Source: Nitrospirota bacterium
GTDB taxonomy: Bacteria; Nitrospirota; Nitrospiria; SBBL01; JAADHI01
Reading direction: 5' to 3'
Assembly: GCA_029261165.1 (NCBI GenBank)
Contig: JAJDBV010000006.1
Coordinates: forward strand, 1 to 33,655
DNA: 33,655 nt
In this document: positions 4,116 to 24,607 of the stretch, in pieces
Layout: every line of letters begins with the position of its first letter
How positions within the stretch are numbered: position 1 is the first letter of the stretch
Made by a program: the position numbers and the translations under genes
The notes under the pieces: generated by a model
Told to the model about the DNA's origin: nothing
Databases searched by the model: none
The model's input: only the letters and a program-made list of their open reading frames with translations

Positions 4116-4979
4116 ATGAAAAAAAATGTTCTTATCTTGCTCGCCGCATCAATGCTGTTTCAAGCATGTGCCAGCCTGGGAAATAAAGGGCATGATGTTC
4201 TTGGGCCGGTTTCTGATCAAGTGGTTGAGAAGCAGCGTGGCTTGCTTGCAAAAAATACCGAAGGTAAAGGGTTCGGGCCTCAATCTCCGCGTGATATTGA
4301 TTCAAATCGTGGTAATAACGGTCGTGCATTCAATGCTGCGCCCGCCTATACAGAAATGAATCTCTGTAATATTCATTTTCATAAGAACGCGGAACACCAG
4401 GGTGGCGAGTTCACCAAGTATGCTGGTAACGGTGATGGCCACGGATATCAGAGTGGTTACGAGTATTCTGGCAATCTGAGTGAAGCAGAGCTAAGTCCAT
4501 TTAATATCTCAGGTAAACACGGTGGTCTTTCCTCGGGAGACACCATTGAAGTTCACTACGTTCACTCAAGCGCACAGGTCAAACCAGGCCCAACGCTGGG
4601 TTCTTGTCTGAGTGATGCGACCGGGAATCCTCAGTTGCGAGTAGAGACTCAGGTGTATGTTGTCGTCAATGACAAAAATGCGCTCGACTTCGGCGCATTG
4701 ACGAGGCACGGCATGATGATTAATGGTCTACACCAAGCATTCAACATCCCAAATAATACGGGTGCGCCTGTTGTGTACGCTGGATCAACAACGGGTCCTG
4801 GTTACAATGAAAAAGGTTCTCCTTTCCAAGTAACCTGGAGTGTTCGTCCTAAAGTAGCTAAGGTTAACATTGAGACTGTCGCTGAGTGGTTTAAGGGCAA
4901 TGTTTTCAATGAAGATCATGCACACGGGGTAAGAAACCTTGTTACCAATCAGGATCTTCTTTCAAAAATAGGGCGGTAG
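4116..4979 (+). CDS. Delta-class carbonic anhydrase, predicted lipoprotein
   Basis: This 287-residue protein matches the delta (CA_like) carbonic anhydrase family first described from diatoms, which interconverts CO2 and bicarbonate. The lipoprotein-type signal MKKNVLILLAASMLFQAC has a slightly unusual lipobox (F-Q-A-C18), so the enzyme should be anchored outside the inner membrane. The catalytic core carries a histidine cluster, IHFHKNAEH (His87, His89, His94), and EVHYVH (His147, His150). This resembles the HFH and HxVH zinc-ligand pattern of alpha carbonic anhydrases. GFGPQSPRDID near residue 52 is another family block. Two cysteines (C84, C164) could pair. Codon choice and surrounding DNA look more AT-rich than the neighbours, which is compatible with acquisition by transfer. 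Family call is fairly secure. Metal ligands are inferred by analogy. Confidence 0.85.
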   Translation: MKKNVLILLAASMLFQACASLGNKGHDVLGPVSDQVVEKQRGLLAKNTEGKGFGPQSPRDIDSNRGNNGRAFNAAPAYTEMNLCNIHFHKNAEHQGGEFTKYAGNGDGHGYQSGYEYSGNLSEAELSPFNISGKHGGLSSGDTIEVHYVHSSAQVKPGPTLGSCLSDATGNPQLRVETQVYVVVNDKNALDFGALTRHGMMINGLHQAFNIPNNTGAPVVYAGSTTGPGYNEKGSPFQVTWSVRPKVAKVNIETVAEWFKGNVFNEDHAHGVRNLVTNQDLLSKIGR

Positions 4980-5222: not shown

Positions 5223-6344
5223 ATGAAAAAGGGTTTAATAGTTGTAGTTCTGGCATTAGCGGTATTCTTGCCGGTTCAGGGTCGGGCGGCTGAAACGAGA
5301 TTATTGACTGAAGCGGATGGAATCCGTGTCGGCTATGATCGGGGCTTTCTGCTCCAAGCGGGGGACAAGTTTGAGATGAAATTCGGGGCCTTCCTCCAAT
5401 TTCAGTATCTTCATCGGGATAATGATTTTCCGGCAACGCAGGATATTTCAACCTTCAAGGTTGCCAAGGGCCGGCTTCGCTGGACCGGTTATATGTACAA
5501 CCCGAAGATTGGCTATGTGATTCAGTTGGAGCTGGCAGATACGAGTGTACCTGGCACAAAAAGAGTTGCTTTGAAGGATTTTGCGATCAATTTAAATCTA
5601 TATCCAAACGCAAAATTCCGAATTGGCCAGTTTAAAATTCCTTTCAACCGGCAGCAACTCGTCTTTTTTGGGGATCTCCAATTTGTTGATACCTCCCAAG
5701 CTTCGAAGGCATTTAATGCCAATCAGACCAATGCTCGGGATATCGGGGTCCAGGTCAGTGGGATATACTATGAAGACACCCTTCAGTATTGGTTCGGCCT
5801 ATTTAATGGGAATGGGATAAACAATAACAACGACAGCAGGGGGTTCGTTACAATGGGCCGGGTTGTCTACAATCCCTTTGGCAAGATGTCTATTTCGGAA
5901 TCAGACATGGCCAATTCAAAAGACCCGCTTCTCTCACTCGGCATCGGTGTCGCCCATGACGCATCAGATATGGGTGGGACTCTAAGCCCGTCCTCCGCAG
6001 ATACGATCGGCTTGGAATTTGCCTATAAGCATCGCGGACTTTCCGTCCAGGGCGAATATTATACCCGGGATGATGACCTTAACCCGGATGCCGATGGATA
6101 TTATCTCCAGGCTGGGGTGTTCCTTGTCCCGGGACACATCGAGGTTGCGGGCCGTATCGGCGAGATCGATTCCGATGTTCCGAACAATGATCGGTCTGAA
6201 CTGACTCTGGGAGCGAATATCTTCTTAGATGGCCATCGCCATAAACTCCAGCTCGATGTGTCTGTCTTTGAAATAGAAGCGACTGGGCCTGTTCGAGAAG
6301 ACGATGATGAGGTGATACGCCTTCAGTACCAGATTGCGTTTTAA
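5223..6344 (+). CDS. Phosphate-selective porin O/P-family outer-membrane protein
   Basis: This 373-residue protein has a signal peptide (cleavage likely after QGRAA) and belongs to the OprP/OprO-type porin family, 16-stranded beta barrels that pass anions or oligophosphates. Typical blocks are KFGAFLQFQYLHRD near the start, KGRLRWTGYMYNPKIGYVIQLELAD, the conserved KFRIGQFKIPFNRQ turn, the ARDIGVQVSG strand, and alternating aromatic/hydrophilic strands throughout. It ends in IAF with a C-terminal phenylalanine, the recognition signal for barrel assembly. AAGGGGGGAAG immediately precedes ATG 5223. No pho box or phosphate gene is nearby, so phosphate selectivity is not supported by context. With carbonic anhydrase upstream, bicarbonate or another anion is equally possible, though that is inference. 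Confidence 0.85.
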   Translation: MKKGLIVVVLALAVFLPVQGRAAETRLLTEADGIRVGYDRGFLLQAGDKFEMKFGAFLQFQYLHRDNDFPATQDISTFKVAKGRLRWTGYMYNPKIGYVIQLELADTSVPGTKRVALKDFAINLNLYPNAKFRIGQFKIPFNRQQLVFFGDLQFVDTSQASKAFNANQTNARDIGVQVSGIYYEDTLQYWFGLFNGNGINNNNDSRGFVTMGRVVYNPFGKMSISESDMANSKDPLLSLGIGVAHDASDMGGTLSPSSADTIGLEFAYKHRGLSVQGEYYTRDDDLNPDADGYYLQAGVFLVPGHIEVAGRIGEIDSDVPNNDRSELTLGANIFLDGHRHKLQLDVSVFEIEATGPVREDDDEVIRLQYQIAF

Positions 6345-6388
6345 TCTGGTAGGTTCCCCGGCCCTTTTTACAGGCTTCCCTTGTGATA

Positions 6389-6409
6389 CCCCTCCTTGGT
6401 AAGGAGGGG
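6389..6409. repeat. Perfect 9-bp-stem hairpin downstream of the porin
   Basis: CCCCTCCTT, a GGT loop and AAGGAGGGG form a perfect 9-bp stem 45 bases after the porin stop. No T-run follows in either direction, so it is not a canonical Rho-independent terminator. It could stabilise the porin mRNA 3' end. Purine/pyrimidine hairpins of this kind recur as dispersed repeats in many genomes, but only one copy is visible here. Confidence 0.6.
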
Positions 6410-6547
6410 TCCGGGGAGGTTGTAAGTGAAGTACCAGTTAGAATACCTTACTGAAAAAATCCAATATATCGAATTTATTTCTTCCTTCCGCGGTCCTTTC
6501 CAAATCAAAGTATCTGCCAAGCGGGACCAATGATTCCCTTGTATCTG

Positions 6548-6576
6548 TTTACCTTATACCTATAAAAGATTATAAT
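6548..6576 (+). promoter_or_regulatory. Promoter of the MBL-B12-thiolase operon (near-leaderless)
   Basis: TTTACC (6548-6553), a 17-bp spacer and a perfect TATAAT (6571-6576) lie just before ATG 6587. Transcription would start about 7 bases after the -10, close to 6583, leaving a 5' leader of only a few bases. This agrees with the lack of any Shine-Dalgarno sequence before the first gene. Confidence 0.55.
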
Positions 6577-6586
6577 TAAAAGTATC

Positions 6587-7429
6587 ATGAAGCTCGGACA
6601 ATTTGAAATTTATCCGATTACTGATGGTGTGCTTCGCCTTGATGGCGGGGCGATGTTCGGGATTGTTCCGAAGATCCTTTGGGAGAAACACCACCCTCCG
6701 GACGATCGGAATCGGATCAAGCTTGAACTGGGATCGCTCCTGATCAAGGCGCATGGTTTTAATATTCTGGTGGATACCGGTATTGGGAACAAAGGGGGTG
6801 AGAAGTTCAATCAAATGTATGGGGTTGAGCGGTGTCCTTCGCTTGAAGAATCACTATCTAAGTTTAATCTTTCACCGGTAGACATTGATCTGGTGATCAA
6901 CACGCATTTCCACTTTGATCATGCCGGCGGGAATACCAGAAGGGATGATCGAGGGGAGATTCATCCGACTTTTGCGAAAGCCGCTTATTTTATCCAAAAA
7001 GGGGAATGGGAATTTGCCAGCAAGCCGAATGAGCGAACCCGTGGGAGCTATCTTCTCGATAACTATGAGGTCTTGCCCAAGGCGGGTCGGCTTAATCTCC
7101 TCGAAGGTGATTCTGAGATATTAAAAGGCATCTCTGTGATCCGTACTCCAGGCCATACACCGCATCATCAATCGATCTTTATTGAATCAAACGGTGAAAA
7201 GGCGGTTTATCTTGGGGACCTCATTCCCACGGCTTCCCACATTCCGCTTCCCTATATTATGGGATACGATCTCTTTCCTCTGACCACCCTTGAAACAAAG
7301 CGGAAACTCCTGGAACAAGCTGAGGAGGAACACTGGCTTTTGGTCTTTCAGCATGATCCAAAAGTACGGATGGGATATGTCAAAAAAAAAGAAGGTCGTT
7401 TCCTGTTGGAAGAGGTTCGGAATGCCTAG
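6587..7429 (+). CDS. Metallo-beta-lactamase-fold hydrolase
   Basis: This 280-residue protein of the MBL superfamily usually binds two zinc or iron ions and hydrolyses thioesters, lactones or related bonds. The dinuclear site is complete: THFHFDH (His107, His109, Asp111, His112), GHTPHH (His190), GD at Asp211 and FQHDP (His256). The N-terminal YPITDGVLRLDGGAMFG is a family start, which supports ATG 6587 even though no Shine-Dalgarno sequence is present. The gene overlaps the next by 8 bases, so the two are translationally coupled. With a CoA-type thiolase homologue in the operon, hydrolysis of an acyl-CoA thioester is a reasonable guess, but nothing in the sequence fixes the substrate. Quorum-quenching lactonase activity is an alternative. 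Confidence 0.85.
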   Translation: MKLGQFEIYPITDGVLRLDGGAMFGIVPKILWEKHHPPDDRNRIKLELGSLLIKAHGFNILVDTGIGNKGGEKFNQMYGVERCPSLEESLSKFNLSPVDIDLVINTHFHFDHAGGNTRRDDRGEIHPTFAKAAYFIQKGEWEFASKPNERTRGSYLLDNYEVLPKAGRLNLLEGDSEILKGISVIRTPGHTPHHQSIFIESNGEKAVYLGDLIPTASHIPLPYIMGYDLFPLTTLETKRKLLEQAEEEHWLLVFQHDPKVRMGYVKKKEGRFLLEEVRNA

Positions 7430-7868
7430 AACGGTTCAGAAAAAAAATGATGGAAACGCACATCGTATTGCATCCCCCCAGAGAGTGAGAATTCTCCTGG
7501 CGAAGGTGGGTCTGGACGGTCATGATCGTGGCATCAAGGTGGTCGCGCGAGCGCTCCGCGATGCGGGGATGCAAGTACTCTATCTCGGTCTTCATAACAC
7601 ACCTGAAGAGATCGTTTCCTCTGCAGTTCAGGAAGATGTGGACGGTATTGGTCTCTCAATTCACTCTGCCGCCCATATGACCCTTTTTAAGAAGGTCAAG
7701 TCCCTCTTGAAAAAGGAAGAGGCGGAAGATATTGCTGTTTTCGGAGGGGGCATTGTGCCTGATGTAGATATTCGTGCCTTAAAGAGGGCTGGCATCGGCG
7801 AGATCTTTACGCCAGGCACGACGATGGAAGAGATTGTTGAATCTGTAAAAAAGATGGTTCATCATTAA
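7422..7868 (+). CDS. Stand-alone cobalamin-binding protein, methylmalonyl-CoA mutase C-terminal-domain type
   Basis: This 148-residue protein consists of just the B12-binding Rossmann-like domain found at the C-terminus of acyl-CoA mutases. The DxHxxG motif is present as DGHDRG (residues 32-37), with His34 the expected lower axial cobalt ligand. It is followed by GLSIHSAAH and a GGG turn (AVFGGGIVPD) that contact the nucleotide tail, then the FTPGTTMEEIVE helix. ATG 7422 lies within the end of the MBL gene (8-bp overlap). A longer in-frame opening starts at 7290 but is only an overlap of that gene. No mutase catalytic subunit is present in the window, so this would be either the small subunit of a mutase encoded elsewhere or a B12 carrier/sensor for the operon's own reaction. 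Confidence 0.88.
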   Translation: MPRTVQKKNDGNAHRIASPQRVRILLAKVGLDGHDRGIKVVARALRDAGMQVLYLGLHNTPEEIVSSAVQEDVDGIGLSIHSAAHMTLFKKVKSLLKKEEAEDIAVFGGGIVPDVDIRALKRAGIGEIFTPGTTMEEIVESVKKMVHH

Positions 7869-7926
7869 TATTCTTTTTCCTAAGCTTTTGAAGCCATGTT
7901 GATGAGGTGTCACTATCCAACGCTCA

Positions 7927-9204
7927 GTGTATATGATTACAGGCGGTATCACGAAGTTCAAAAAGGCCAATACCGAAATGGACTTTCGGCTCATGGTCAA
8001 GTCGGCCTATGATTATGCCCTTAAGGATCTTCCGAGCCTGAAGCCTGAGATGTTTGACGGGAGTGTCGGATCTTATTTTTCTGATCATTTCACACGACAA
8101 TTGATGGCGGCCATCATGGTTCAGGATTACCTGGGCCTATGCCCGAAGCCGTCCCGACGGGTTGAAGGCGGCGGGGCGACCGGGGGACTTTGTTTTCAGA
8201 GTGCCTGGGAGTCGGTCGCTTCAGGCAGAATGGATATCTGCCTTGCATTTGGGTTTGAGACGATGTCCCGCGTGAATACCTGGAAGGGGAACGAATTTAT
8301 CGCCTTGGCGTCAGATACCAATTTTGACTATCCCGTCGGGGGGTTCTATAGCGGCTACTATGCCATGATGGTCCAAAGGCACATGCATGAGTTTGGAACG
8401 ACACCGGAGCAGATGGCGAAAGTTTCCATTAAGAATCACGCCAATGCCCTGTACAATCCCTATGCGCAGAGACCAGAGCTGTTGACAGTCGAGGATGTCC
8501 GAAGTGCTAAGATGGTCGCGACGCCTCTTACGATGCTTGATATTTGCACGATGTCGGATGGTGCGGCTGTCGCTGTTCTGGCTTCGGAAAAGGTCGCCGA
8601 AAAAATTTGTAAACGGCCCGTCAAAGTGGCAGGTGTCGGGAGCGGGACGGATGCGATGCGGATGGCAGACCGGCCACGTGGGAAAGTCCTCCTTCTTCCT
8701 CATGAACGGGCAAGCGACTACAAAGGCTTAAAATACCCGGGAGTCCACTCTTTCCGGGGTGGACGCATGGCGGCGAAACTGGCCTATCAGATGGCCGGCA
8801 TTCAAAACCCGGCGCAGGATCTTGATTTTGTTGAACTGCATGATGCCTACACTTCTTCTGAGATACAGACCTACGAAGATCTTGGTCTATGTAAGTATGG
8901 TGAAGGGGGATGCTTTGTTGAAGAAGGAAGCCCTTTTATGCCGGGGATCAACTATGGCCTGGACCTTCCAAAGCGAGGAAAGATTCCGGTGAACCCAAGC
9001 GGAGGTCTCCTGGCCTGTGGTCATCCGGTCGGTGCCACGGGCCTGATGCAGGCGGTCTTCGCTTTCTGGCAGTTGCAGGGGAGTATTAAAAAACATCTGG
9101 GGAGCAGCCAGCTCCAGGTCAGGAATGCAAAGCGGGGCCTGATTCACAGCCACGCGGGAACGGGGACCTATATCACAGTCAGCATCCTCGAGCAACCCCA
9201 ATAA
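7927..9204 (+). CDS. SCP-x/archaeal-type thiolase homologue lacking the active-site cysteine
   Basis: This protein of about 425 residues has the thiolase fold of the SCP-x/acetyl-CoA acetyltransferase-like group. The region that normally reads CATG or CASG reads VEGGGATGG, so the nucleophilic Cys position is Gly83 (codon GGG at 8173). Cys89, six residues on, is the nearest thiol. Other landmarks remain: VASGRMDICLAFGFETM, HDAYT, NPSGGLLACGHPVGATG and, near the C-terminus, HSHAGTG. It follows the B12 protein by 58 bases. The partner DUF35 zinc/OB protein usual for this group is missing. The start is uncertain: GTG 7927 or ATG 7933, neither with a well-spaced ribosome site. It may be a non-condensing acyl-CoA-binding protein or use different chemistry. 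Confidence 0.85.
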   Translation: MYMITGGITKFKKANTEMDFRLMVKSAYDYALKDLPSLKPEMFDGSVGSYFSDHFTRQLMAAIMVQDYLGLCPKPSRRVEGGGATGGLCFQSAWESVASGRMDICLAFGFETMSRVNTWKGNEFIALASDTNFDYPVGGFYSGYYAMMVQRHMHEFGTTPEQMAKVSIKNHANALYNPYAQRPELLTVEDVRSAKMVATPLTMLDICTMSDGAAVAVLASEKVAEKICKRPVKVAGVGSGTDAMRMADRPRGKVLLLPHERASDYKGLKYPGVHSFRGGRMAAKLAYQMAGIQNPAQDLDFVELHDAYTSSEIQTYEDLGLCKYGEGGCFVEEGSPFMPGINYGLDLPKRGKIPVNPSGGLLACGHPVGATGLMQAVFAFWQLQGSIKKHLGSSQLQVRNAKRGLIHSHAGTGTYITVSILEQPQ

Positions 9205-9333: not shown

Positions 9334-10773
9334 CTATGTTCTCTCCTGGATGATTTCGAACTGTTGTTTTGTGGGTTCCGCGCAGCAAAACCAGGGTTCG
9401 GTTAGTCTTGGTGGGCGTTTACGGTCAGCGTGAACGGGATGTGTAATCGTGACCGGTGGGCGTCCCTCATAGACCGCATAGGCGATTTCTTTCAATTGAT
9501 AGAAAATGGCGGCGGGGTCCACCTCCTCTTGTGTTCCTTTTTCTACTTCCTCAGCGAATACTTCCTGGAGTCGGTCGACCCTGGGATCCGGATGCGTCCA
9601 GTGATAAGTAAATAACTCTTGAATGAGGGGACCCAAGTGAGGCGTGATGCTCGGTTCTGACAGGAGAAGGGAGCCAGGCGGGATGAGTAGGCGGATCGTG
9701 TATTGTACCGGGTCTAGGGCATCGATCAGGCCTTCCTTTTCAACGAAGTCGAAAAGGTCGATGATGTCTTCAATCGTGGTCCAGGGGGTAAAGGGAACAA
9801 GTGAGGGGCGGAGCGTGATCCCGGCCTGCCGTGTCAGATGAACCGCACGGGTAATATCGGCTCTCGTGTGGTTTTTATCGAGATAGGACAAGATGGTATT
9901 ACTGAGCGACTCCGCGGCTGAGACGACAAAGATACAGCCCAGTTCGGCCAGTTCTGAAAGAGAGGACTGATCCCGGATAAGATGTTCGATCTTGGCGGTG
10001 AAATCGAAGGTGAGGTCTGGAAAGTGCGCATGCATTGATCGGACAATGCGCAGAGAATGGACGGGGCCGTTTAAGAAGTCGGGATCACCGAAGGTAATAT
10101 GTGTTGCTCCCATTTCAACAAGGCTTTTAATATCTTCCAGAACAACCTCACGGGGAATAAGAAAGAAACGTCCGTCATAGACTGACGGGATCGGGCAGTG
10201 TCGGCAGTGGTATCGGCAGCCCCGGCTTGCCTCAACGTAACCCACTTGCCGAAGTGTGCCGTTTTCCTCCAGGTGGGCATATTTTTCAAGAGGGGGAAGC
10301 AAGGTCCGACGCGGCGCGATGAAAGGAAGATGTGTCAGGGTCGGTGCCGCATTATTTCGGCGCGTGCTGACGCCTTCAATGGGCCGACCACCATTTGCTT
10401 CAAGAGATTTTACAAGTGAAACCAATGCGGTTTCGTATTCTCCTCCGATAATGGAGTCTGCACATTTTCCAAGGAGCGCATCCTTGTTGAGGGATGAATA
10501 GAGGCCGAAGAAGGTAATATGGCAAGTGGTGTTGTTCTCCCGGACCCGTGTGGAGACCATGGATCCGATGCGCAGGGCGGTGTGCATCGGGACAGAAATG
10601 GCAATCAACCTGGCCCGCTTGATTTTGGCCATGTCGAGTTTCTGGACGGAGAGGTCGATGATATCAGGGAAATATCCTGCCTGTTCTAAAAAGGCCAGGG
10701 GCGACGCAAGCGCGATGGGCTGGTGTCCCAGTTCGTAACAGGAGATGAGTAATATTTCTCCGGGACCTTTCAC
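9334..10773 (-). CDS. B12-binding-domain radical SAM protein with CCAEP tail
   Basis: This 479-residue radical SAM enzyme has an N-terminal cobalamin-binding-like Rossmann region (about residues 1-130; ISCYELGHQPIALASP at the front). The SAM-cleaving [4Fe-4S] motif is C186-x3-C190-x2-C193 (RGCRYHCRHC), within a TIM-barrel core that continues through DPDFLNG and AAESLSN. The C-terminus carries EPWFCCAEPT (Cys463-Cys464, codons TGC TGC). This matches what I recall as the CUAEP/CCAEP-tail radical SAM (seleno)protein family, where the first tail cysteine can be selenocysteine. Here both are ordinary cysteines. GTG start at 10773 overlaps the upstream gene's stop as GTGA, so translation is coupled. 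Substrate is unknown. Confidence 0.88.
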   Translation of the reverse strand: MKGPGEILLISCYELGHQPIALASPLAFLEQAGYFPDIIDLSVQKLDMAKIKRARLIAISVPMHTALRIGSMVSTRVRENNTTCHITFFGLYSSLNKDALLGKCADSIIGGEYETALVSLVKSLEANGGRPIEGVSTRRNNAAPTLTHLPFIAPRRTLLPPLEKYAHLEENGTLRQVGYVEASRGCRYHCRHCPIPSVYDGRFFLIPREVVLEDIKSLVEMGATHITFGDPDFLNGPVHSLRIVRSMHAHFPDLTFDFTAKIEHLIRDQSSLSELAELGCIFVVSAAESLSNTILSYLDKNHTRADITRAVHLTRQAGITLRPSLVPFTPWTTIEDIIDLFDFVEKEGLIDALDPVQYTIRLLIPPGSLLLSEPSITPHLGPLIQELFTYHWTHPDPRVDRLQEVFAEEVEKGTQEEVDPAAIFYQLKEIAYAVYEGRPPVTITHPVHADRKRPPRLTEPWFCCAEPTKQQFEIIQERT

Positions 10774-16047: not shown

Positions 16048-16130
16048 AACGGGTCGTTTCTGTGTTTTTCTTTCCCCTGTTCTGGGGGGAGCGGACGTAA
16101 CATCCATGTGTGTTCATGGAGGCAAGCAGA

Positions 16131-17804
16131 TTGCTTATGGACCGTCCCTGGCTTAAGTATTATGAACAGAATGTCCCGGAAAGCACTCAATTTCCATCCG
16201 TTCCAGTCTATCAATTTTTAGATGATTCAGCCCTCCGTTACCCGAGTCTCTGTGCCATCCTTTTCTACGGGAAGAGGACAAGCTACCAACAGTTGTCTCT
16301 AGAAAGTAATCGGTTCTCACATCTCCTCGCAAAACTGGGTGTTCGTAAAGGGGATCGGGTGGCTATTATGCTTCCGAACGTTCCCCAATGTGTTATTGCC
16401 TACTATGGTGCCCTGAAGGTCGGTGCGATTGTTGTGATGACGAATCCGCTGTACGTCGAACGAGAACTTCAAGTACAGCTTGATGATTCCGGCGCAGAAA
16501 CGATTATTGCCCTCGATTTTTTCTATCCCCTTATTGAAAAGATCAAGCATAAAACTTCTTTGAAAAATATTATCTTAACCTCCATCCGGGATGCATTGCC
16601 CTGGTTTTTGTCTTTACTCTACCCGATCAAGGCAAAGAAGGAGGGGCAATGGATTCAAGTTCAAAAAGTGCCGCCTGTCTACGACATGATGGAACTGATG
16701 AAACAGATGCCTTCATCGGACCTGAATGTGATTGTTTTTCCTACAGACCTGGCCCTTCTCCAATACACCGGCGGAACGACTGGAACCCCAAAGGGGGTCA
16801 TGTTGACGCATCAAAACCTTGTGGTCAATACGATTCAATGCCGTAAATGGATGCCTTCCCTTATAGAGAAGAAGGAAGTTTTTCTCGGAGTGATTCCTTT
16901 CTTCCATGTCTACGGGATGTCAACTTGTATGAACCTGGCGATCTATCTGGGATCCACATTGGTTCTCTTACCGCGATTTACAACCCGAGATGTCTTGAAG
17001 ACCATCCAGAAAAACAAGGTCACAATATTCATGGGAGTACAGGCGATGTACGTCGCAATTAATAATTTTTCCACTATTAAAGAACATGATCTCTCTTCTG
17101 TACGTGTTTGCATCTCTGGTGCGGGACCACTTCATTTGGAGGTTCAACGCTGCTTTGAAGCGCTGACAGGGGCAAAGCTGGTCGAGGGATTCGGACTGTC
17201 TGAGGCCTCTCCTGTGACGCATGTGATCCCGATTGATGGGAAGCGGAAAGAAGGGAGCATCGGACTTCCCCTTCCGAATACCCTGGCAAAGATTGTTGAT
17301 ATTGAGACAGGAATGGAAGACCTTGAAGTTGGAGAGGTTGGTGAATTGATTGTTCAGGGGCCTCAGGTGATGCAGGGATATTGGAAAAATGAGAAAGAAA
17401 CAGAGGATGTCTTGCGGGATGGGTGGCTTTATACCGGCGATATGGCCCGAATGGATGAAGATGGATACTTTTTTATTGTCGACCGCAAGAAGGATATGAT
17501 CAAGACGAAGGGAGAGAATGTCTATCCACGGGAGGTGGAAGAGGCGCTTTTTCGGCATCCTAAAATTGAAGATGCGGTCGTGATTGGCATTCCTGAGAAG
17601 TTCTCGGGAGAATATATTAAGGCCTATGTTGTGATGAAAGAAGGAGTAGCGTTAACAGTTGATGAGGTGATGCGTCATTGCGGCACAGAGTTGTCTAAAT
17701 TCAAGGTGCCGAAAGAGATTGAATTTCGATCTGAACTTCCGAAGACGATCATTGGAAAGGTATTAAGGCGTGTTTTGCTGGAGGAAGAGATGAAGAAGCG
17801 GTAA
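16131..17804 (+). CDS. fadD: Long-chain fatty acid-CoA ligase (AMP-binding, FadD-like)
   Basis: This protein of about 557 residues activates fatty acids to acyl-CoA via an acyl-adenylate, at the cytoplasmic side of the membrane. The ANL-superfamily motifs are complete: YTGGTTGTPKGVMLTH (phosphate loop), GFGLSEASP, GWLYTGDMARMDEDGY, the hinge IVDRKKDMIKTKGENVYP and the catalytic lysine in KTIIGKVLRR. A GGAGG at 16118-16122 suits TTG 16131. ATG 16137 and GTG 16110 are in-frame alternatives, the last lying before the Shine-Dalgarno. It is the first gene of the fatty-acid degradation block, separated from the thiolase operon by repeat B3, whose left end contains this gene's TAA stop. FadD-like is secure, exact chain length is not. 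Confidence 0.92.
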   Translation: MLMDRPWLKYYEQNVPESTQFPSVPVYQFLDDSALRYPSLCAILFYGKRTSYQQLSLESNRFSHLLAKLGVRKGDRVAIMLPNVPQCVIAYYGALKVGAIVVMTNPLYVERELQVQLDDSGAETIIALDFFYPLIEKIKHKTSLKNIILTSIRDALPWFLSLLYPIKAKKEGQWIQVQKVPPVYDMMELMKQMPSSDLNVIVFPTDLALLQYTGGTTGTPKGVMLTHQNLVVNTIQCRKWMPSLIEKKEVFLGVIPFFHVYGMSTCMNLAIYLGSTLVLLPRFTTRDVLKTIQKNKVTIFMGVQAMYVAINNFSTIKEHDLSSVRVCISGAGPLHLEVQRCFEALTGAKLVEGFGLSEASPVTHVIPIDGKRKEGSIGLPLPNTLAKIVDIETGMEDLEVGEVGELIVQGPQVMQGYWKNEKETEDVLRDGWLYTGDMARMDEDGYFFIVDRKKDMIKTKGENVYPREVEEALFRHPKIEDAVVIGIPEKFSGEYIKAYVVMKEGVALTVDEVMRHCGTELSKFKVPKEIEFRSELPKTIIGKVLRRVLLEEEMKKR

Positions 17805-17958
17805 ACGGTTCAGCATGCCCCCCTTTTCCTCCATGGAGGCGTTGCTGTGGTGCTCGAATCCTCACGTAGGGACATACGTAGCGGTTCTGCGCTCCTCGCG
17901 CCTTACCCTGGAGGATGGGTCTCGCGAAGCCAAAATTGTGGCATGTTGAGCCGTTTAC
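17801..17958 (+). repeat. Family B hairpin repeat, copy 3
   Basis: This 158-bp element has clear terminal inverted repeats: GTAAACGGTTCAGCATGCC at the left and the complement of GTAAACGGCTCAACATGCC at the right. It contains the shared core GCGTTGCTGTGGTGCTCGAA, a central CACGTA-gggaca-TACGTA hairpin and GCGCTCCTCGCGCCTTACCC. It includes the TAA stop of the acyl-CoA ligase (17802-17804) and ends 45 bases before the extended -10 of the next operon. Confidence 0.88.
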
Positions 17959-17999
17959 AAGGCTAGCATCATTTTTTACCGAACAAAATTCAGGCGAAT

Positions 18000-18008
18000 T
18001 GATATAAT
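18000..18008 (+). promoter_or_regulatory. Extended -10 promoter for the beta-oxidation operon
   Basis: TGATATAAT (18000-18008) is a perfect -10 with the extended TG element. There is no good -35 at 16-18 bp, as expected for an extended -10 promoter. Transcription would begin near 18015, just before the ribosome site GAAAGGAG of the thiolase gene. Confidence 0.5.
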
Positions 18009-18034
18009 TAATCGAAATATTGAAAGGAGTCTGC

Positions 18035-19225
18035 ATGAAGGAAGCGGTTATTGTAGAAGGGGTCCGAACGCCCATCGGAAATATGGGCGGGGCGCTCAAG
18101 GGACTCACCAACCAGAAGATGGGTGAAGCAGTAATCCGAGAGGTATTCAATCGTTCCGGAATCGATCCTGCGGCAGTTGAAGAGGTCATCTTTGGTTGTG
18201 TCGGGCAATATAGTGATGCGACCAATCTGGCGCGTGTCATCATGTTGATGGCGGACTTGCCAATTTCCACCCCGGCCTACACTGTCGCGCGTAATTGTGC
18301 TTCGGGCCTGCAGGCCGTCGTGAATGCCTGCCAGAATATCTACTCGGGGGATGCGGACCTCCAGGTTGCCGGAGGGGTGGAAAACATGAGTCTGGCACCG
18401 TTTGTTTCACGCGACATGCGGTTTGGACAGCGCCTGCGCCATTCCATGATGATTGATTCGATCTGGGAGGGACTGACCGATGGTTTCTGCGGACAGGTCA
18501 TGGGATACACCGCTGAGAACCTTGCAGAAGAGTATCAAATCTCCCGTGAGGAGCAGGACAAATATGCGGTAGAAAGTCATAAGAAGGCCTTTCGAGCGAC
18601 CCGGGAGGGAAAATTTCGAGAGGAGATCGTTCCCGTTCTTGTTCCGAAAAAAGTGGCAGGAAAGGAAGTGACTCCGGAGCCCTTTTCTCAGGATGAAGGG
18701 CCGAATATCGCGCTCACGGAGCAGATGCTCTCTCTCTATCCGACGATCTTCAAGGACGGGGGAACAGTAACACCAGGCAATGCCTGTCCGATCAGCGATG
18801 GCGCGGCGGCCCTCCTGGTCATGTCACGAGAGCGGGCCAATGCCCTGGGAAAAGAACCGATGGGGATTGTGCGGTCGTACGCCGCAGTTGGGGTCGATCC
18901 ACAACGCATGGGAATCGGCCCGGCGCTGGCTATTCCAAAGGCATTGAAGAAGGCGGGGCTTTCTCTTTCGGATATTGATCTGATTGAGGTCAATGAAGCC
19001 TTTGCCGTTCAGTACCTTGCGGTTGAGCGAGTATTGGGACTCAAGCGGGAGATCACGAACGTTAATGGCGGGGCAATCGCCCTTGGGCATCCGGTCGGGA
19101 TGAGCGGCACCCGCCTGGTGATCACCCTCCTGAAAGAGATGAAAAGGCGGGATTTGACTCTGGGTGTTGCATCTCTTTGTGTGGGTGGCGGACTCGGTAT
19201 GGCGATGGTACTGGAGCGAAAGTAG
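18035..19225 (+). CDS. fadA: Acetyl-CoA C-acyltransferase (3-ketoacyl-CoA thiolase)
   Basis: This 396-residue classical thiolase cleaves 3-ketoacyl-CoA with CoA in beta-oxidation, or condenses acetyl-CoA in reverse. All catalytic elements are present: nucleophile Cys88 in RNCASGLQA, the VNEAFAVQ block, GHPVGMSG (His) and the second cysteine in CVGGGLGMA near the C-terminus. This contrasts with the cysteine-less thiolase at 7927. ATG 18035 is preceded by GAAAGGAG at ideal spacing. A TTG at 18020 lies inside that site and is not used. The dehydrogenase gene follows 8 bases after the stop, so this is operonic. FadA and AtoB-type thiolases cannot be separated from the sequence alone. Confidence 0.94.
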
Positions 19226-19233
19226 GAGGAGAC

Positions 19234-20445
19234 ATGTACATTTACAAGGCAGCGGTCATTGGCGCAGGAACCATGGGGGCGGGAATTGCACAGGTGATTA
19301 CTTTTTCAGGCCTTCCGGTGATATTGAAGGACATCAATCAGGAGGCCGTTGATCGTGGCTTGAAGACGATCAGGAAAATCTATCAGAATCGTGTGGATAA
19401 AGGGAAGATGACGGCATCGGAGATGGATCAGAAGATGGCCCTGGTCAGTGGCGCGGTTGACTATTCAGGATTTGCAGATGTCGATATTGTCATTGAGGCG
19501 GTTTTTGAAGATGTTTCGGTCAAGCAAAAACTTTTCCATGATTTGGAAGCGGTTTGTCCTGAGAGTACGATCCTGGCAAGCAATACCTCCTCTCTCCCGC
19601 TCTCTGCTATCGCGTCTTCCTCAGAGAGACCTGAAAAAGTGGTCGGCTTGCATTTCTTCAATCCGGCGCCGGTGATGAAACTGGTTGAAGTGATCCCTGG
19701 TCTTGGAACATCACAGGAGACAATTGATGATGTCACACTCTTTTCAGAAAGTCTTCGGAAGATCCCTATTCGGGTAGAGGAGTGTGCGGGGTTCCTGGTC
19801 AATCGTCTCTTACTCCCCTACTTGAACGAATCTGCCATTGCTCTGGAGGAGGGTGCGGCCACGGCGAAGGAGATGGATGATGCTGTCATTGCCTTTGGAC
19901 TCCCAATGGGCCCTTTTACACTTTTTGACCTGGTTGGAATTGACGTCTCGTTGAAGGTGGCAGATATCCTTTATGAGGCCTATGGTCCCCGGGCGAAGTC
20001 CGCCGAAATTATTACCGCGCTGGTGAAGGCCGGGCGCTATGGCTTAAAAAGCGGATCGGGTTTTTATGAATATGGGGAGGGAAATCCGGGTGCACTCGAT
20101 TCTATTATCGATCAGGTGGGAAAAAAGAAAGGAGCTGGAAGGAATCCTTTTTCCGTAGATCGCCTGATCATGCCGATGATCAACGAAGCCGTGATTTCTC
20201 TCCAGGAAGGTGTTGCATCTGCTGCCGATATCGATGTTGCAATGCTGGCGGGGACTGGTTTTCCTCAGGAAAAAGGAGGCCCGCTTCATTACGCGGATCA
20301 AATCGGCGTTGATACGGTCCTCTCTTCCCTGGAGAAACTAAAAGAGGAGCATGGCGCGCGTTTCTGGCCCGCGCCGATGCTGAAACGTATGGTGGTGGGA
20401 GGATACCTGGGTCAAAAAACGGGGAAGGGCTTCTTCCAATACTAA
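19234..20445 (+). CDS. 3-hydroxyacyl-CoA dehydrogenase
   Basis: This 403-residue NAD-dependent enzyme oxidises L-3-hydroxyacyl-CoA to 3-ketoacyl-CoA. The N-terminal Rossmann motif is [27 protein letters not shown] and [17 protein letters not shown] hold the catalytic Ser/His region, with His in HFFNP. Two C-terminal helical domains follow, the second with ...[23 protein letters not shown]. It lacks the crotonase domain of FadB/FadJ fusions; hydration is done by the separate next gene. GGAGGAG directly precedes ATG 19234. The longer open frame from 19177 overlaps the thiolase and is not used. Confidence 0.94.
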
Positions 20446-20489
20446 CCATATGACATGTTGAACAATGATGAAAGGACAGGAGGGGCGAT

Positions 20490-21269
20490 TTGGAAAATGA
20501 GATTGTAAAATCTTCACGAGATGGTCATGTGGCGACGGTTACTTTGAATAATCCTCCCGCGAATCTTCTGACCTTTGAGCTCTTGTCCGAATTGGAAAAA
20601 GTGCTTGATTTGCTGGCGGGGGATGATGAGGTCAAGGCGGTCGTCATTACGGGATCGGGGAGTCTTTTCGTCGCCGGAGCCGATGTCAAAGTGATCGCCT
20701 CTATCTCTTCGTCTGAGGAGGGTGAATCACTTGCAAAAAGGGGACAGGCGGTTTTCGACAAGCTTGAACAGATGCAGAAACCGGTGATCGCTGCCATTAT
20801 GGGTTTCTGCCTTGGTGGTGGACTCGAGTTGGCAATGGCTTGCCATATCCGTATCGGCGGGGAACGCGTCCGTCTGGGGCAACCGGAAATCAACCTCGGC
20901 ATCATTCCGGGTTTTGGCGGGACGCAACGTCTTCCTAGATTGACGGGACAGGCAAAGGCGATTGAGTTGATCTTGACCGGTGATATGATCAATGCGGAGG
21001 AAGCGAAGCGGCTAGGCCTTCTCAACAAAGTGGTCCCGGAAGGCGCGGTGTTGAAAGAGGCTCAGGGATTGGCGAAAAAGATTGCGGCAAAAGGGAAGAA
21101 AGCGGTCGAAGCAAGTCTGATGGCCATTCAGTATGGGATGGAACATCCGCTTCCCTCCGGTTTGACACTTGAGGCGGAACTTTTTGGAAAGATCTGTGAG
21201 ACAGAGGATAAGAAAGAGGGTGTAAAAGCCTTTCTTGAAAAGCGTCAGGCGAAGTTTCAAGGTCGATAA
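20490..21269 (+). CDS. Enoyl-CoA hydratase (crotonase family)
   Basis: This 259-residue crotonase hydrates trans-2-enoyl-CoA to 3-hydroxyacyl-CoA. The oxyanion-hole and both catalytic glutamates are recognisable: GFCLGGGLELAMAC (first Glu) and LGQPEINLGIIPGFGGTQRL (second Glu), with GADVK earlier. The start is TTG 20490, with CAGGAGGGG 5-6 bases upstream. No ATG gives the conserved N-terminus. It sits between the dehydrogenase and etfB in the same operon, which supports a beta-oxidation role over another crotonase activity. Confidence 0.92.
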   Translation: MENEIVKSSRDGHVATVTLNNPPANLLTFELLSELEKVLDLLAGDDEVKAVVITGSGSLFVAGADVKVIASISSSEEGESLAKRGQAVFDKLEQMQKPVIAAIMGFCLGGGLELAMACHIRIGGERVRLGQPEINLGIIPGFGGTQRLPRLTGQAKAIELILTGDMINAEEAKRLGLLNKVVPEGAVLKEAQGLAKKIAAKGKKAVEASLMAIQYGMEHPLPSGLTLEAELFGKICETEDKKEGVKAFLEKRQAKFQGR

Positions 21270-21322
21270 TATCTGGTATCGGTCGTAATTGCGAAGGATG
21301 CCCTCTCGAAAGTAGGAGGCTG

Positions 21323-22114
21323 ATGAAGATCGCCGTTTGCATTAAACAAGTCCCCGCCACAGAGTCAAAAATCAAACCATCTTCTGATGGAAAGGAAATT
21401 GACCGAACGGGACTTTCCTATGTTGTGAATCCATATGACGAGTTTGGTGTTGAGGAGGCCTTAAGAATAAAAGAGCGGCTTGAGAGTTCTGTCACCGTGG
21501 TGACCATGGGGACGGAAAGGGCAGAAGAGGCACTGAGAACCTGTCTTGCCCTTGGGGCGGACCAGGCAATACATATCAAGGATGATCTGCTGAGGGGGGG
21601 AGATGCCTATGGGGTGGCTCTTGTTCTGACCACGGCCTTGATGAAAGAGCATTATGACATTATCTTTTTTGGAAAACAGGCCGTTGATGACGACAGCGGC
21701 GCCGTTGGTATTCATGTTGCTGAACTCATGGGGCTTCCGCATGTGGCCGTAATTAATAAACTTGATCTTAAGCCGGAAGAGGGGAGGGCCCTCGCCTCAC
21801 GACAGATTGAAGGGGCGACTGAAATGGTCAACATAAAACTCCCTGCGGTCTTTACCTGCCAAAAAGGGCTCAATGAGCCGAGATATGCTTCTCTCCCCGG
21901 CATTATGAAAGCAAAACAGAAACCATTGACGACACTGACCTTGGCTGACTTAGGTGTAGATAAAGATGCCGTTGGGGCGAAAGGGGCAAAGCTTGTGGTT
22001 GACTGCATCAAAGCACCAAGGGTCCGATCAACCGGCAATATCATCGACAAAAATCCCTCAGAGTCGGTTGAAGAGCTTGTTCGTTTACTTCGGGATGAGG
22101 CGAAAGTATTATAA
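21323..22114 (+). CDS. etfB: Electron transfer flavoprotein beta subunit (EtfB/FixA-like)
   Basis: This 263-residue subunit, with EtfA, carries electrons from acyl-CoA dehydrogenases. Family blocks include the MKIAVCIKQVPATESKI start, NPYDEFGVEEALRIKE, VTMGTERAEEALRTCLALGADQAI, DDDSGAVG and ASRQIEGATEMVNIKLPAVFTCQKGLNEPRY. The segment aligned with the second-FAD loop of bifurcating ETFs reads RGGDAYGVA, resembling neither the clear GADT form nor the classical mitochondrial form. Bifurcation therefore cannot be decided. AGTAGGAGG lies before ATG 21323. It is 53 bases after the hydratase and 121 bases before etfA. Confidence 0.93.
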   Translation: MKIAVCIKQVPATESKIKPSSDGKEIDRTGLSYVVNPYDEFGVEEALRIKERLESSVTVVTMGTERAEEALRTCLALGADQAIHIKDDLLRGGDAYGVALVLTTALMKEHYDIIFFGKQAVDDDSGAVGIHVAELMGLPHVAVINKLDLKPEEGRALASRQIEGATEMVNIKLPAVFTCQKGLNEPRYASLPGIMKAKQKPLTTLTLADLGVDKDAVGAKGAKLVVDCIKAPRVRSTGNIIDKNPSESVEELVRLLRDEAKVL

Positions 22115-22235
22115 CTTGTTACCGTGTCGCATCCGTTTTACCAAATCCATCACCCGTCGTTACTTTGAGAAAAAATGACATCGATTTAGCTCTCGATATA
22201 CAGATAGAATTTTGAAAGGAACGCAAGGAGGCATT

Positions 22236-23225
22236 ATGGCGGGCACACTGGTCTTTTCAGAACAACGTGAGGGAAAGGTCAAGCGTGTCGCTCTGGAGGC
22301 ACTTACAGCCGCTCGAACCCTTCAATCCAAGGTCGGAGGAGAAGTTGCGGCGGTGATCATAGGCGATCAGGTGGCTGATGAGGCAAAGGGGCTTACGGCT
22401 GCGGGCGCGGAAAAGGTCTACCTGGCAGAGGATCCCTTCCTACACTATTATTCGTCGGAAGGATATGCTTCTATTATTGCGGACCTGGCAAAGAAGTTGG
22501 ATACCCGTCTAATCCTGATGGGGGCAACGATGATGGGGAAGGATCTTGGCCCGAAACTGGCGGCCAGACTCGGCGGGCCTTTTGCCGGTGATTGTGTTGG
22601 GCTGGAAATCGTCGATGAGGGAATGCTTGTCGCACATCGACCGATCTACGGAGGGAAGATCATGTCCACGGTCAAGAGCCGTCAAAGTGGCTTCCAGGTG
22701 GCCACCATTCGACCAAATGTCTTTCCCGTGGAGAAACAGACGTCGGAGAATACCATCCGGATTGAAAGAATCACCTCACCTTGTGATCTCTCCAGTTTGC
22801 TTGCCCAGGTACAAGAGGTGGTGGCGACAGCGAGTTCGAAAGTTGAATTGACGGAGGCACGCATTATCGTATCGGGAGGAAGGGGACTCAAAGGTCCTGA
22901 AAATTTTAACTTGGTTGAGGACCTGGCAGAAGCTCTCGGGGCTGCTGTAGGGGCATCCCGTGCCGCGGTTGATGCCGGTTGGAAACCGCACAGTTACCAG
23001 GTTGGCCTGACGGGTAAAACGGTTTCTCCTCTTCTCTATATTGCCTGCGGTATTTCCGGAGCAATACAACATCTGGCCGGGATGTCTTCTTCGAAATATA
23101 TCGTTGCGATCAATAAAGATCCGAATGCCCCGATCTTCAAGATTGCCAATTATGGCATCGTTGGTGATCTTTTTGAGATTCTTCCTCTCCTGACTGAGGC
23201 TGTAAAAAAGGTGAGAGAAGGTTAA
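22236..23225 (+). CDS. etfA: Electron transfer flavoprotein alpha subunit (EtfA/FixB-like)
   Basis: This 329-residue FAD-binding partner of EtfB has an N-terminal ETF domain (GDQVADEAKGLTAAGAEKVYLAED) and a C-terminal FAD domain. The latter has the signature VSGGRGLKGPENFNLVEDLAEALGAAVGASRAAVDAGW and the closing LYIACGISGAIQHLAGM...IVAINKDPNAPIFKIANYGIVGD. There is no N-terminal ferredoxin extension. AAGGAGG precedes ATG 22236. The open frame from 22212 contains no better start. The operon with FixC downstream suggests that the ETF is re-oxidised by that protein. Confidence 0.94.
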   Translation: MAGTLVFSEQREGKVKRVALEALTAARTLQSKVGGEVAAVIIGDQVADEAKGLTAAGAEKVYLAEDPFLHYYSSEGYASIIADLAKKLDTRLILMGATMMGKDLGPKLAARLGGPFAGDCVGLEIVDEGMLVAHRPIYGGKIMSTVKSRQSGFQVATIRPNVFPVEKQTSENTIRIERITSPCDLSSLLAQVQEVVATASSKVELTEARIIVSGGRGLKGPENFNLVEDLAEALGAAVGASRAAVDAGWKPHSYQVGLTGKTVSPLLYIACGISGAIQHLAGMSSSKYIVAINKDPNAPIFKIANYGIVGDLFEILPLLTEAVKKVREG

Positions 23226-23302
23226 ACCCCATATGTCAGGATTCAAAGGCCAACGGAAAATGGGACGGCGTCCTCTGACCCCCCGTATTTTGGAGCGTTC
23301 AC

Positions 23303-24607
23303 TTGTCAGACAAATTTGACGTCATCATCGTAGGTGCGGGGCCGGCAGGTTCGGCCGCTGCACTTACCTTGGCTCGGGCCGGTTTATCCGTTGTCGTCTT
23401 TGAACGGGGCGCGTTTCCCGGCGCAAAGAATATGTTCGGGGGGGTCCTTTATACACCCATTCTAAACAAATTGATCCCCAAGTTTTGGGAAGAAGCCCCG
23501 ATTGAACGACACATTGTAAAGCGCCGGTTTAGCCTTCTTTCCAGTAAATCGGAGGCGGCTTTTGAGTTTCGCTGTGAAGATTACAATGAAAAGCCCCCTT
23601 TTAATCAGAGTTTCTCTGCGCTCAGGGCACGCTTTGATCCATGGTTTTCCAAAAAGGCGGAAGAAGCAGGTGCCATGGTTATCCCTGAAACGGTCGTAGA
23701 TGACCTGATCGTTAAAAATGGCAGGGTTTGCGGCGTGAAGGCCCGTCGAGAAGGGGGAGAGGTCTTGGCCGATGTCGTCATCGCCGCAGATGGGGTGAAT
23801 TCTTTTTTAGCGAAAAAAGCGGGCCTTCGTAAAGACTTCAGTCGAGCGGTCCTGGCCGTAGCGGCAAAGGAAGTCATCAGTCTTCCGCGTGAAGTGATAG
23901 AGGATCGTTTTTCCCTGGAGGGTCAGGAGGGAATGGCGATGGAATTCTTTGGCGATTCCGTGGCCGGTATGGTTGGCGGCGGATTTATTTATACAAATCA
24001 GGAGACGCTTTCTGTTGGGATTGCCTGTTCCATTAAGTCATTTATCGATAAAAAGGTGGCACCGAATGACCTACTGGATCGGTTTAAGGCGCATCCGAGT
24101 ATAAAACGCCTGATAAAAAAAGGAGAGACACTGGAGTATTCAGGGCACATGATTCCAGAGGGTGGTTTTGAACGGGTGCCGCAGGTCTATACCGATGGGC
24201 TTCTCCTGGTGGGAGATGCGGCCCACCTGGTGAATGCGTCTTTCTACCATGAAGGAACCAACCTGGCGATGGCCTCGGGCTTATATGCCGCAGAGGCCAT
24301 TATTGAGGCGAAAGAAAAAGATGATTTTTCGGCACAAACGCTGAAGCGATACCAGAAAAAACTAAATAATAGTTTCGTGATGAAGGATTTAAAAAAATAC
24401 CGGGCTGTTGAAAAATGGTCTCATGAGAACTTAAAATTTTTTGAGGAATATCCAGGTATTGCATTAGAGATGCTAAAAGATTACTTTAGTATATCTGAAG
24501 TGCCGAAAGAGACGATTCAAAAAGAAGCATACCGAAAAGTACGCACTCATATTTCCCCGATACAGGCCTTTCTTGAATTGAATAAATTCAGGAAAACTTT
24601 TTTTTAA
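23303..24607 (+). CDS. fixC: FixC-like FAD-dependent electron transfer flavoprotein:quinone oxidoreductase
   Basis: This 434-residue flavoprotein of the FixC/ETF-QO family is expected to take electrons from EtfAB and reduce membrane quinone. It shows the FAD motif GAGPAGSAAALTLA, the KNMFGGVLYTP block, AADGVNSFLAKKAGL and GDAAHLVNASFYHEGTNLAMASG. The start is TTG 23303 with TTTTGGAG upstream. The usual FixX ferredoxin is not encoded downstream: only 69 bases separate the stop from the convergent PilZ gene. The protein's own C-terminus has no four-cysteine cluster, so the iron-sulfur partner must be elsewhere or dispensable. The last 70 codons are noticeably AT-rich. Confidence 0.9.
   Translation: MSDKFDVIIVGAGPAGSAAALTLARAGLSVVVFERGAFPGAKNMFGGVLYTPILNKLIPKFWEEAPIERHIVKRRFSLLSSKSEAAFEFRCEDYNEKPPFNQSFSALRARFDPWFSKKAEEAGAMVIPETVVDDLIVKNGRVCGVKARREGGEVLADVVIAADGVNSFLAKKAGLRKDFSRAVLAVAAKEVISLPREVIEDRFSLEGQEGMAMEFFGDSVAGMVGGGFIYTNQETLSVGIACSIKSFIDKKVAPNDLLDRFKAHPSIKRLIKKGETLEYSGHMIPEGGFERVPQVYTDGLLLVGDAAHLVNASFYHEGTNLAMASGLYAAEAIIEAKEKDDFSAQTLKRYQKKLNNSFVMKDLKKYRAVEKWSHENLKFFEEYPGIALEMLKDYFSISEVPKETIQKEAYRKVRTHISPIQAFLELNKFRKTFF

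Follow-up and report, generated by a model that had tools for sequence, protein, structure and literature searches.

Known thiolase-fold proteins that lack the catalytic cysteine and pair with a DUF35 protein catalyze the retro-aldol cleavage of beta-hydroxyacyl-CoAs; for Ltp2, the substrate is a tertiary alcohol and a ketone is released. The two closest described systems of this kind are the steroid side-chain aldolase Ltp2-ChsH2(DUF35) (PDB 6ok1) and the bile-acid aldolase Sal-Shy(DUF35) (PDB 9myr), both with Gly in the column of the thiolase nucleophile, in Ltp2 as part of a GGGA motif. Ltp2 has a catalytic Tyr within the motif YDHF, no GHP motif, and a DUF35 fused to a MaoC domain. In the Sal enzyme CtSal, Tyr302 and Cys304 (YDCY) are essential, Gly stands for the thiolase Cys, and thiolysis is impossible (PMC12329534). 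Two thiolases with the nucleophilic Cys, archaeal acetoacetyl-CoA thiolase (6esq) and BbsAB (7pxp), likewise have a DUF35 partner and carry HDxF and GHP-type motifs.

Against these systems we compared a gene, here called THIO, in a window of 33,655 nucleotides (the whole stretch of DNA that was analyzed, contig JAJDBV010000006.1 of a Nitrospirota bacterium), for which an earlier note had described a thiolase-fold protein with glycine at the nucleophile position. The features considered are:

6587..7429, + strand: metallo-beta-lactamase-fold hydrolase, YtnP lactonase-like, a conserved neighbor in Nitrospirota that is also found in THIO-less operons
7422..7868, + strand: B12-binding small subunit of an acyl-CoA mutase, a conserved THIO neighbor
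7927..9204, + strand: THIO, Cys-less thiolase-fold protein of 425 aa, NCBIfam NF004982/PRK06365 clade
8161..8193, + strand: nucleophile loop VEGGGATGGLC, Gly83 (codon GGG, 8173-8175) replacing Cys
8662..8751, + strand: clade-specific insertion ADRPxGxVxLLPHExxxDYKxLKYPGVHSF, residues about 246-275, conserved in the THIO clade
8839..8853, + strand: HDAYT motif, His305-Thr309, with Ala307 at the second catalytic Cys of SCP2 thiolases (HDCF)
9019..9042, + strand: GHPVGATG motif, residues 365-372 including His366, shared with thiolases, lost from Ltp2 and Sal
9145..9165, + strand: HSHAGTG C-terminal loop, His407-Gly413, with IHSHA invariant across the THIO family

The 425-residue product contains Thiolase_N and Thiolase_C domains, and AlphaFold2 with 51 homologues predicted a thiolase fold (pLDDT 86, pTM 0.91) that matched PDB thiolases with TM scores of about 0.75-0.9, the top matches being SCP2 thiolases, archaeal acetoacetyl-CoA thiolase and benzoylsuccinyl-CoA thiolase, the last two among the best by sequence as well. 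The insertion at residues 246-275 has no counterpart in the thiolases and aldolases compared, 6esq and BbsAB included. Between positions 7903 and 7935 there are two in-frame start candidates, GTG 7927 and ATG 7933, with a Shine-Dalgarno-like GAGGTG about 17 nt or more ahead of them; homologues begin with MRPVYM or similar, and the window has CAA (7918-7920) at the position of their Met.

At 8152-8199 the THIO reading frame gives SRRVEGGGATGGLCFQ. In a MAFFT alignment with 6esq, 7pxp (BbsB) and 6hsj (SCP2), every thiolase has its nucleophilic Cys in the Gly83 column, where all aligned THIO-family members, like TcLtp2 and CtSal, have Gly, in agreement with the earlier placement of glycine at the nucleophile. 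The same substitution is found in all of the best 80 homologues from one scan of GTDB genomes (71-84% identical to THIO), every one of which also keeps the pattern [VITH]E[GSA]GG[AS]TG, far beyond chance, while G82, G83, T85, G86 and G87 are invariant in the 51-sequence alignment. The sole row with Cys in the scan was an unrelated paralogue of 32% identity. A lone mutation or decay as the cause of Gly83 is thus ruled out, and the view that the gene is not a decaying one is upheld by conservation across the family. Comparison of THIO with four homologues found synonymous sites saturated for dN/dS.

The second catalytic Cys is missing as well, since Ala307 is invariant in the family, where the motif reads HDAY or sometimes HDAF; the aligned motifs are HDCF in SCP2 thiolases and the archaeal thiolase, HDAF in BbsB, YDHF in TcLtp2 and YDCY in CtSal. 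BbsB is nevertheless an active thiolase, so this second Cys is not universal among thiolases. With neither catalytic Cys present, an acyl-enzyme cannot form in THIO, which bears out the note's claim that thiolysis through an acyl-cysteine at position 83 is not possible. Both active-site histidines, His305 and His366, are retained and are invariant, with their loops, across many phyla; the fold, HDAYT and GHPVGATG are therefore intact, as had been claimed. THIO accordingly shares with biosynthetic, degradative and SCP2-type thiolases the fold and the histidines of HDxF and GHPxGxxG, and lacks the nucleophilic and second Cys. With Ltp2 and Sal it shares the Cys-to-Gly change and a DUF35 neighbor, and lacks the catalytic Tyr and the DUF35-MaoC fusion; where Sal has Tyr302 and Cys304 and has lost GHP, THIO has His305 and Ala307 and has kept it. 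Judged by these motifs, the Gly / HDAY / GHP site is a predicted third acid/base arrangement, unlike those of thiolases and steroid aldolases.

NF004982 (PRK06365) was by far the best model for THIO and matched over the full length, with 679 bits (685 in the genome search) against a curated cut-off of 695; its title is 'thiolase domain-containing protein', without an assigned function. The family forms its own clade in our tree (support 100/99), separate from Ltp2, and its joining of Ltp2/Sal apart from the Cys thiolases has a support of 80/86 only, a level compatible with either one shared loss of the Cys or independent losses in THIO and Ltp2/Sal. Exact membership of the Ltp2/Sal group was not accepted, given that the catalytic Tyr motif (YD[HC][FY]) is absent. 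The 80 nearest homologues span Nitrospirota, Geobacteraceae and other Deltaproteobacteria, Chloroflexi, Planctomycetota including Scalindua, NC10, Actinobacteria, Terriglobia and others. In two loci from Scalindua / Planctomycetota (L045, L053), the THIO-DUF35-mutase cluster adjoins lysine 2,3-aminomutase and what by eye appear to be further lysine-fermentation genes, a diaminohexanoate dehydrogenase and a beta-keto acid cleavage enzyme.

A DUF35/ChsH2-type zinc protein (stand-alone, about 150-180 aa, Pfam OB_ChsH2_C and zf-ChsH2) is encoded near THIO in 70 of 81 loci, in most of them directly after it. In the window's own genome, it lies on a separate contig with an acyl-CoA dehydrogenase and then MeaB behind it, and a third contig carries the mutase large subunit. 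Among 296 Nitrospirota genomes, 12 have THIO, and DUF35 was found in 11 of these and elsewhere as one weak match (hypergeometric P about 4e-19, with kinship ignored). The lone THIO genome without it, G175, belongs to the window's family and has a broken THIO copy (about 6151-7419 of its locus), interrupted by two in-frame stop codons and eroded in its C-terminal residues; a second genome of the same genus (G159) is without both genes. As co-inheritance holds even though the two genes are unlinked in four genomes (G000, G139, G255 and G183, 13 kb apart in the last), it is strong evidence that THIO and DUF35 act jointly.

The commonest Nitrospirota neighborhood runs from 2-oxoacid dehydrogenase E1/E2, a canonical thiolase, 3-hydroxyacyl-CoA dehydrogenase and the mutase large subunit through the metallo-beta-lactamase-fold hydrolase, B12 subunit, THIO, DUF35 and MeaB to PrpD/B/C and an acyl-CoA synthetase. 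Three loci (L110, L112 and L113) have the order E1-E2-thiolase-HAD-mutase-MBL-B12 followed by THIO-DUF35-MeaB, and three Nitrospira-type relatives (G050, G055 and G251) have the same order, but with methylcrotonyl-CoA carboxylase (MCC) beta, a hydratase (crotonase) and HMG-CoA lyase between B12 and MeaB. In these related Nitrospirota, the MCC/HMG-CoA lyase branch of leucine breakdown stands in the operon slot of THIO, to which its proteins and chemistry are unrelated. The HMG-CoA lyase of this branch exceeded the cut-off of 246 with a score of 400 bits. Its carboxyltransferase gave about 690-700 bits with AccD1 and with the MCC beta chains of human and Pseudomonas; a single entry under the name of propionyl-CoA carboxylase scored slightly above these. 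MCC beta and HMG-CoA lyase co-occur in the same 31 Nitrospirota genomes and in none of the 12 with THIO, so that no sampled Nitrospirota genome has both versions. The alternation is seen within two families, and the exclusion gave P 5e-5 at genome level among mutase carriers and P about 0.03 at genus level.

When homologous loci were used to reach 46 THIO genomes, 44 of them had no strong MCC beta match; the genomes that carry both are G330, with the two modules within about 8 kb, and G313. Beyond Nitrospirota the exclusion is weak. In Desulfuromonadia, where 11 and 42 of 195 genomes have THIO and MCC, respectively, exclusion was not significant (overlap 1, expected 2.4). An MCC-like set and THIO-DUF35 lie within about 8 kb of each other in locus L064, from a record titled Undinarchaeales archaeon; the operon is bacterial-type and the bin label looks doubtful.

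Mutases of THIO genomes, the large subunit from the window's own genome included, carry Phe and Gln at two specificity positions, which is the isobutyryl-CoA mutase (ICM) pair (valine) rather than the Tyr/Arg of methylmalonyl-CoA mutase. The mutase is found whichever of the two modules fills the slot, so THIO does not serve it; a main role tied to the B12 mutase was ruled out by Geobacteraceae with ACAD-THIO-DUF35 and no mutase nearby, and by Nitrospira-type genomes with a mutase operon and no THIO.

Three further regions of the window were noted. The product of 4116-4979 strongly matches delta carbonic anhydrase (Pfam CA_like, PF10563, E 2e-79), a family best known from algae such as diatoms. 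A radical SAM protein that matches B12-binding domains weakly is encoded immediately behind THIO on the opposite strand (9334-10773, - strand) and is not conserved beside THIO in other genomes. A second fatty-acid/acyl-CoA breakdown cluster at 16110-24607 contains acyl-CoA synthetase, thiolase, hydroxyacyl-CoA dehydrogenase, enoyl-CoA hydratase and ETF beta and alpha, and a similar cluster lies near mutase genes in G131.

The slot that THIO fills otherwise holds three steps, from 3-methylcrotonyl-CoA to acetyl-CoA and acetoacetate; taken with the precedent of Cys-less, DUF35-linked enzymes, cleavage to acetone and acetyl-CoA is the simplest inference. We tentatively favor THIO as a retro-aldolase-type C-C lyase that works with DUF35 in branched-chain acyl-CoA breakdown, the likeliest substrate being 3-hydroxyisovaleryl-CoA, which would yield acetone and acetyl-CoA, the latter also the product of Sal. 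This substrate would be the hydrated form of 3-methylcrotonyl-CoA derived from leucine. THIO would place the thioester of the bound beta-hydroxyacyl-CoA in its oxyanion hole, the main chain near Gly83 may hold the substrate's beta-oxygen, and His305 and His366 could serve as acid/base while the C-C bond is cleaved to acetyl-CoA and a carbonyl compound. It is possible, if doubtful, that THIO and DUF35 thereby provide a leucine route requiring no carboxylase, and hence no biotin, CO2 or ATP, in which cleavage of 3-hydroxyisovaleryl-CoA at the Gly / HDAY / GHP site would replace MCC, methylglutaconyl-CoA hydratase and HMG-CoA lyase. Against the aldolase analogy, the catalytic-base Tyr of Ltp2/Sal is His in THIO and the acid Cys of Sal is Ala; against the leucine reading, the adjacent acyl-CoA dehydrogenases are short-chain-like and not isovaleryl-specific. 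A search of open-licence literature text returned no fitting leucine-to-acetone or DUF35/B12 thiolase-like enzyme.

A related (retro-)aldolase reaction on 3-hydroxyisobutyryl-CoA, 2-methyl-3-hydroxybutyryl-CoA or similar, giving propionyl-CoA and an aldehyde, or else fixing acetone or an aldehyde, is unlikely. Ltp2 does release propionyl-CoA, and many THIO operons include the methylcitrate-cycle genes PrpB, PrpC and PrpD, yet MCC-type operons that lack THIO contain PrpBCD just as well, and the displaced module is leucine-specific. Acetoacetate is suggested by an acetoacetate-CoA ligase (888-934 bits against a cut-off of 639) whose gene adjoins the THIO-DUF35 pair in several Geobacteraceae and in G131. 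In one operon-like locus (L188, G513) the order is acetoacetate-CoA ligase, thiolase, HAD, ACAD, THIO and DUF35, and in another (L169, G131) the ligase directly follows the THIO-DUF35 pair with genes nearly touching. Such a neighbor fits either a ketone carboxylated to acetoacetate or acetoacetate made directly from HMG-CoA. Starting from acetone, an acetone carboxylase would be needed, and none was recognized in the genome stretches inspected. This same ligase, the presence of HMG-CoA lyase in the slot that THIO fills, and the nature of HMG-CoA as likewise a tertiary beta-hydroxyacyl-CoA favor a thiolase-fold HMG-CoA lyase, which would split HMG-CoA from another carboxylase or route into acetoacetate and acetyl-CoA. 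We consider this quite unlikely, as the usual source of HMG-CoA is missing from the 12 Nitrospirota THIO genomes, none of which has an MCC-like carboxyltransferase at E <= 1e-60.

Loss of both catalytic cysteines would also suit a non-catalytic subunit that binds acyl-CoA or organizes DUF35, acyl-CoA dehydrogenase or the B12 mutase as a scaffold, and PMC12329534 describes an archaeal DUF35 that links a thiolase with HMG-CoA synthase. The invariance of the active-site histidines and loops over many phyla, THIO-DUF35 pairs in Geobacteraceae without a nearby mutase, and mutase operons without THIO make such a role decidedly improbable; binding of acyl-CoA without condensation, as the earlier note had suggested, is possible, although less likely than a retro-aldol reaction. 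The thiolase-like fold and CoA-binding motifs would in turn allow condensation or thiolysis through another nucleophile, for which Cys89 had been put forward. We regard this as very improbable, because 12 of the 80 nearest homologues have Gly, Ser, Asn or Ala instead of Cys89, and Ala stands in place of the HDCF cysteine. The 51-sequence alignment does show an invariant Cys207 and Cys322, but the alignments placed no other conserved Cys in the nucleophile column or in known catalytic columns. Neither a homologue set in which Cys is normal and THIO a lone variant, nor another cysteine at the catalytic site, was therefore found.

Replacement of the thiolase Cys by Gly has precedent; the novelty lies in the THIO clade, in how its active site is arranged, and in its taking the place of a leucine carboxylase module. 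Despite the title 'thiolase domain-containing protein', the family is unable to act as a thiolase through the known mechanism. Its hosts include anammox bacteria, Nitrospirota, Geobacteraceae and NC10 bacteria, of which many are uncultured. If THIO is a leucine-branch aldolase, genome-based predictions that an organism without methylcrotonyl-CoA carboxylase does not use leucine would be wrong for such organisms, and THIO would be a new source of acetone or acetoacetate. DUF35-linked thiolase-fold aldolases would then be a general enzyme type, not a steroid speciality.
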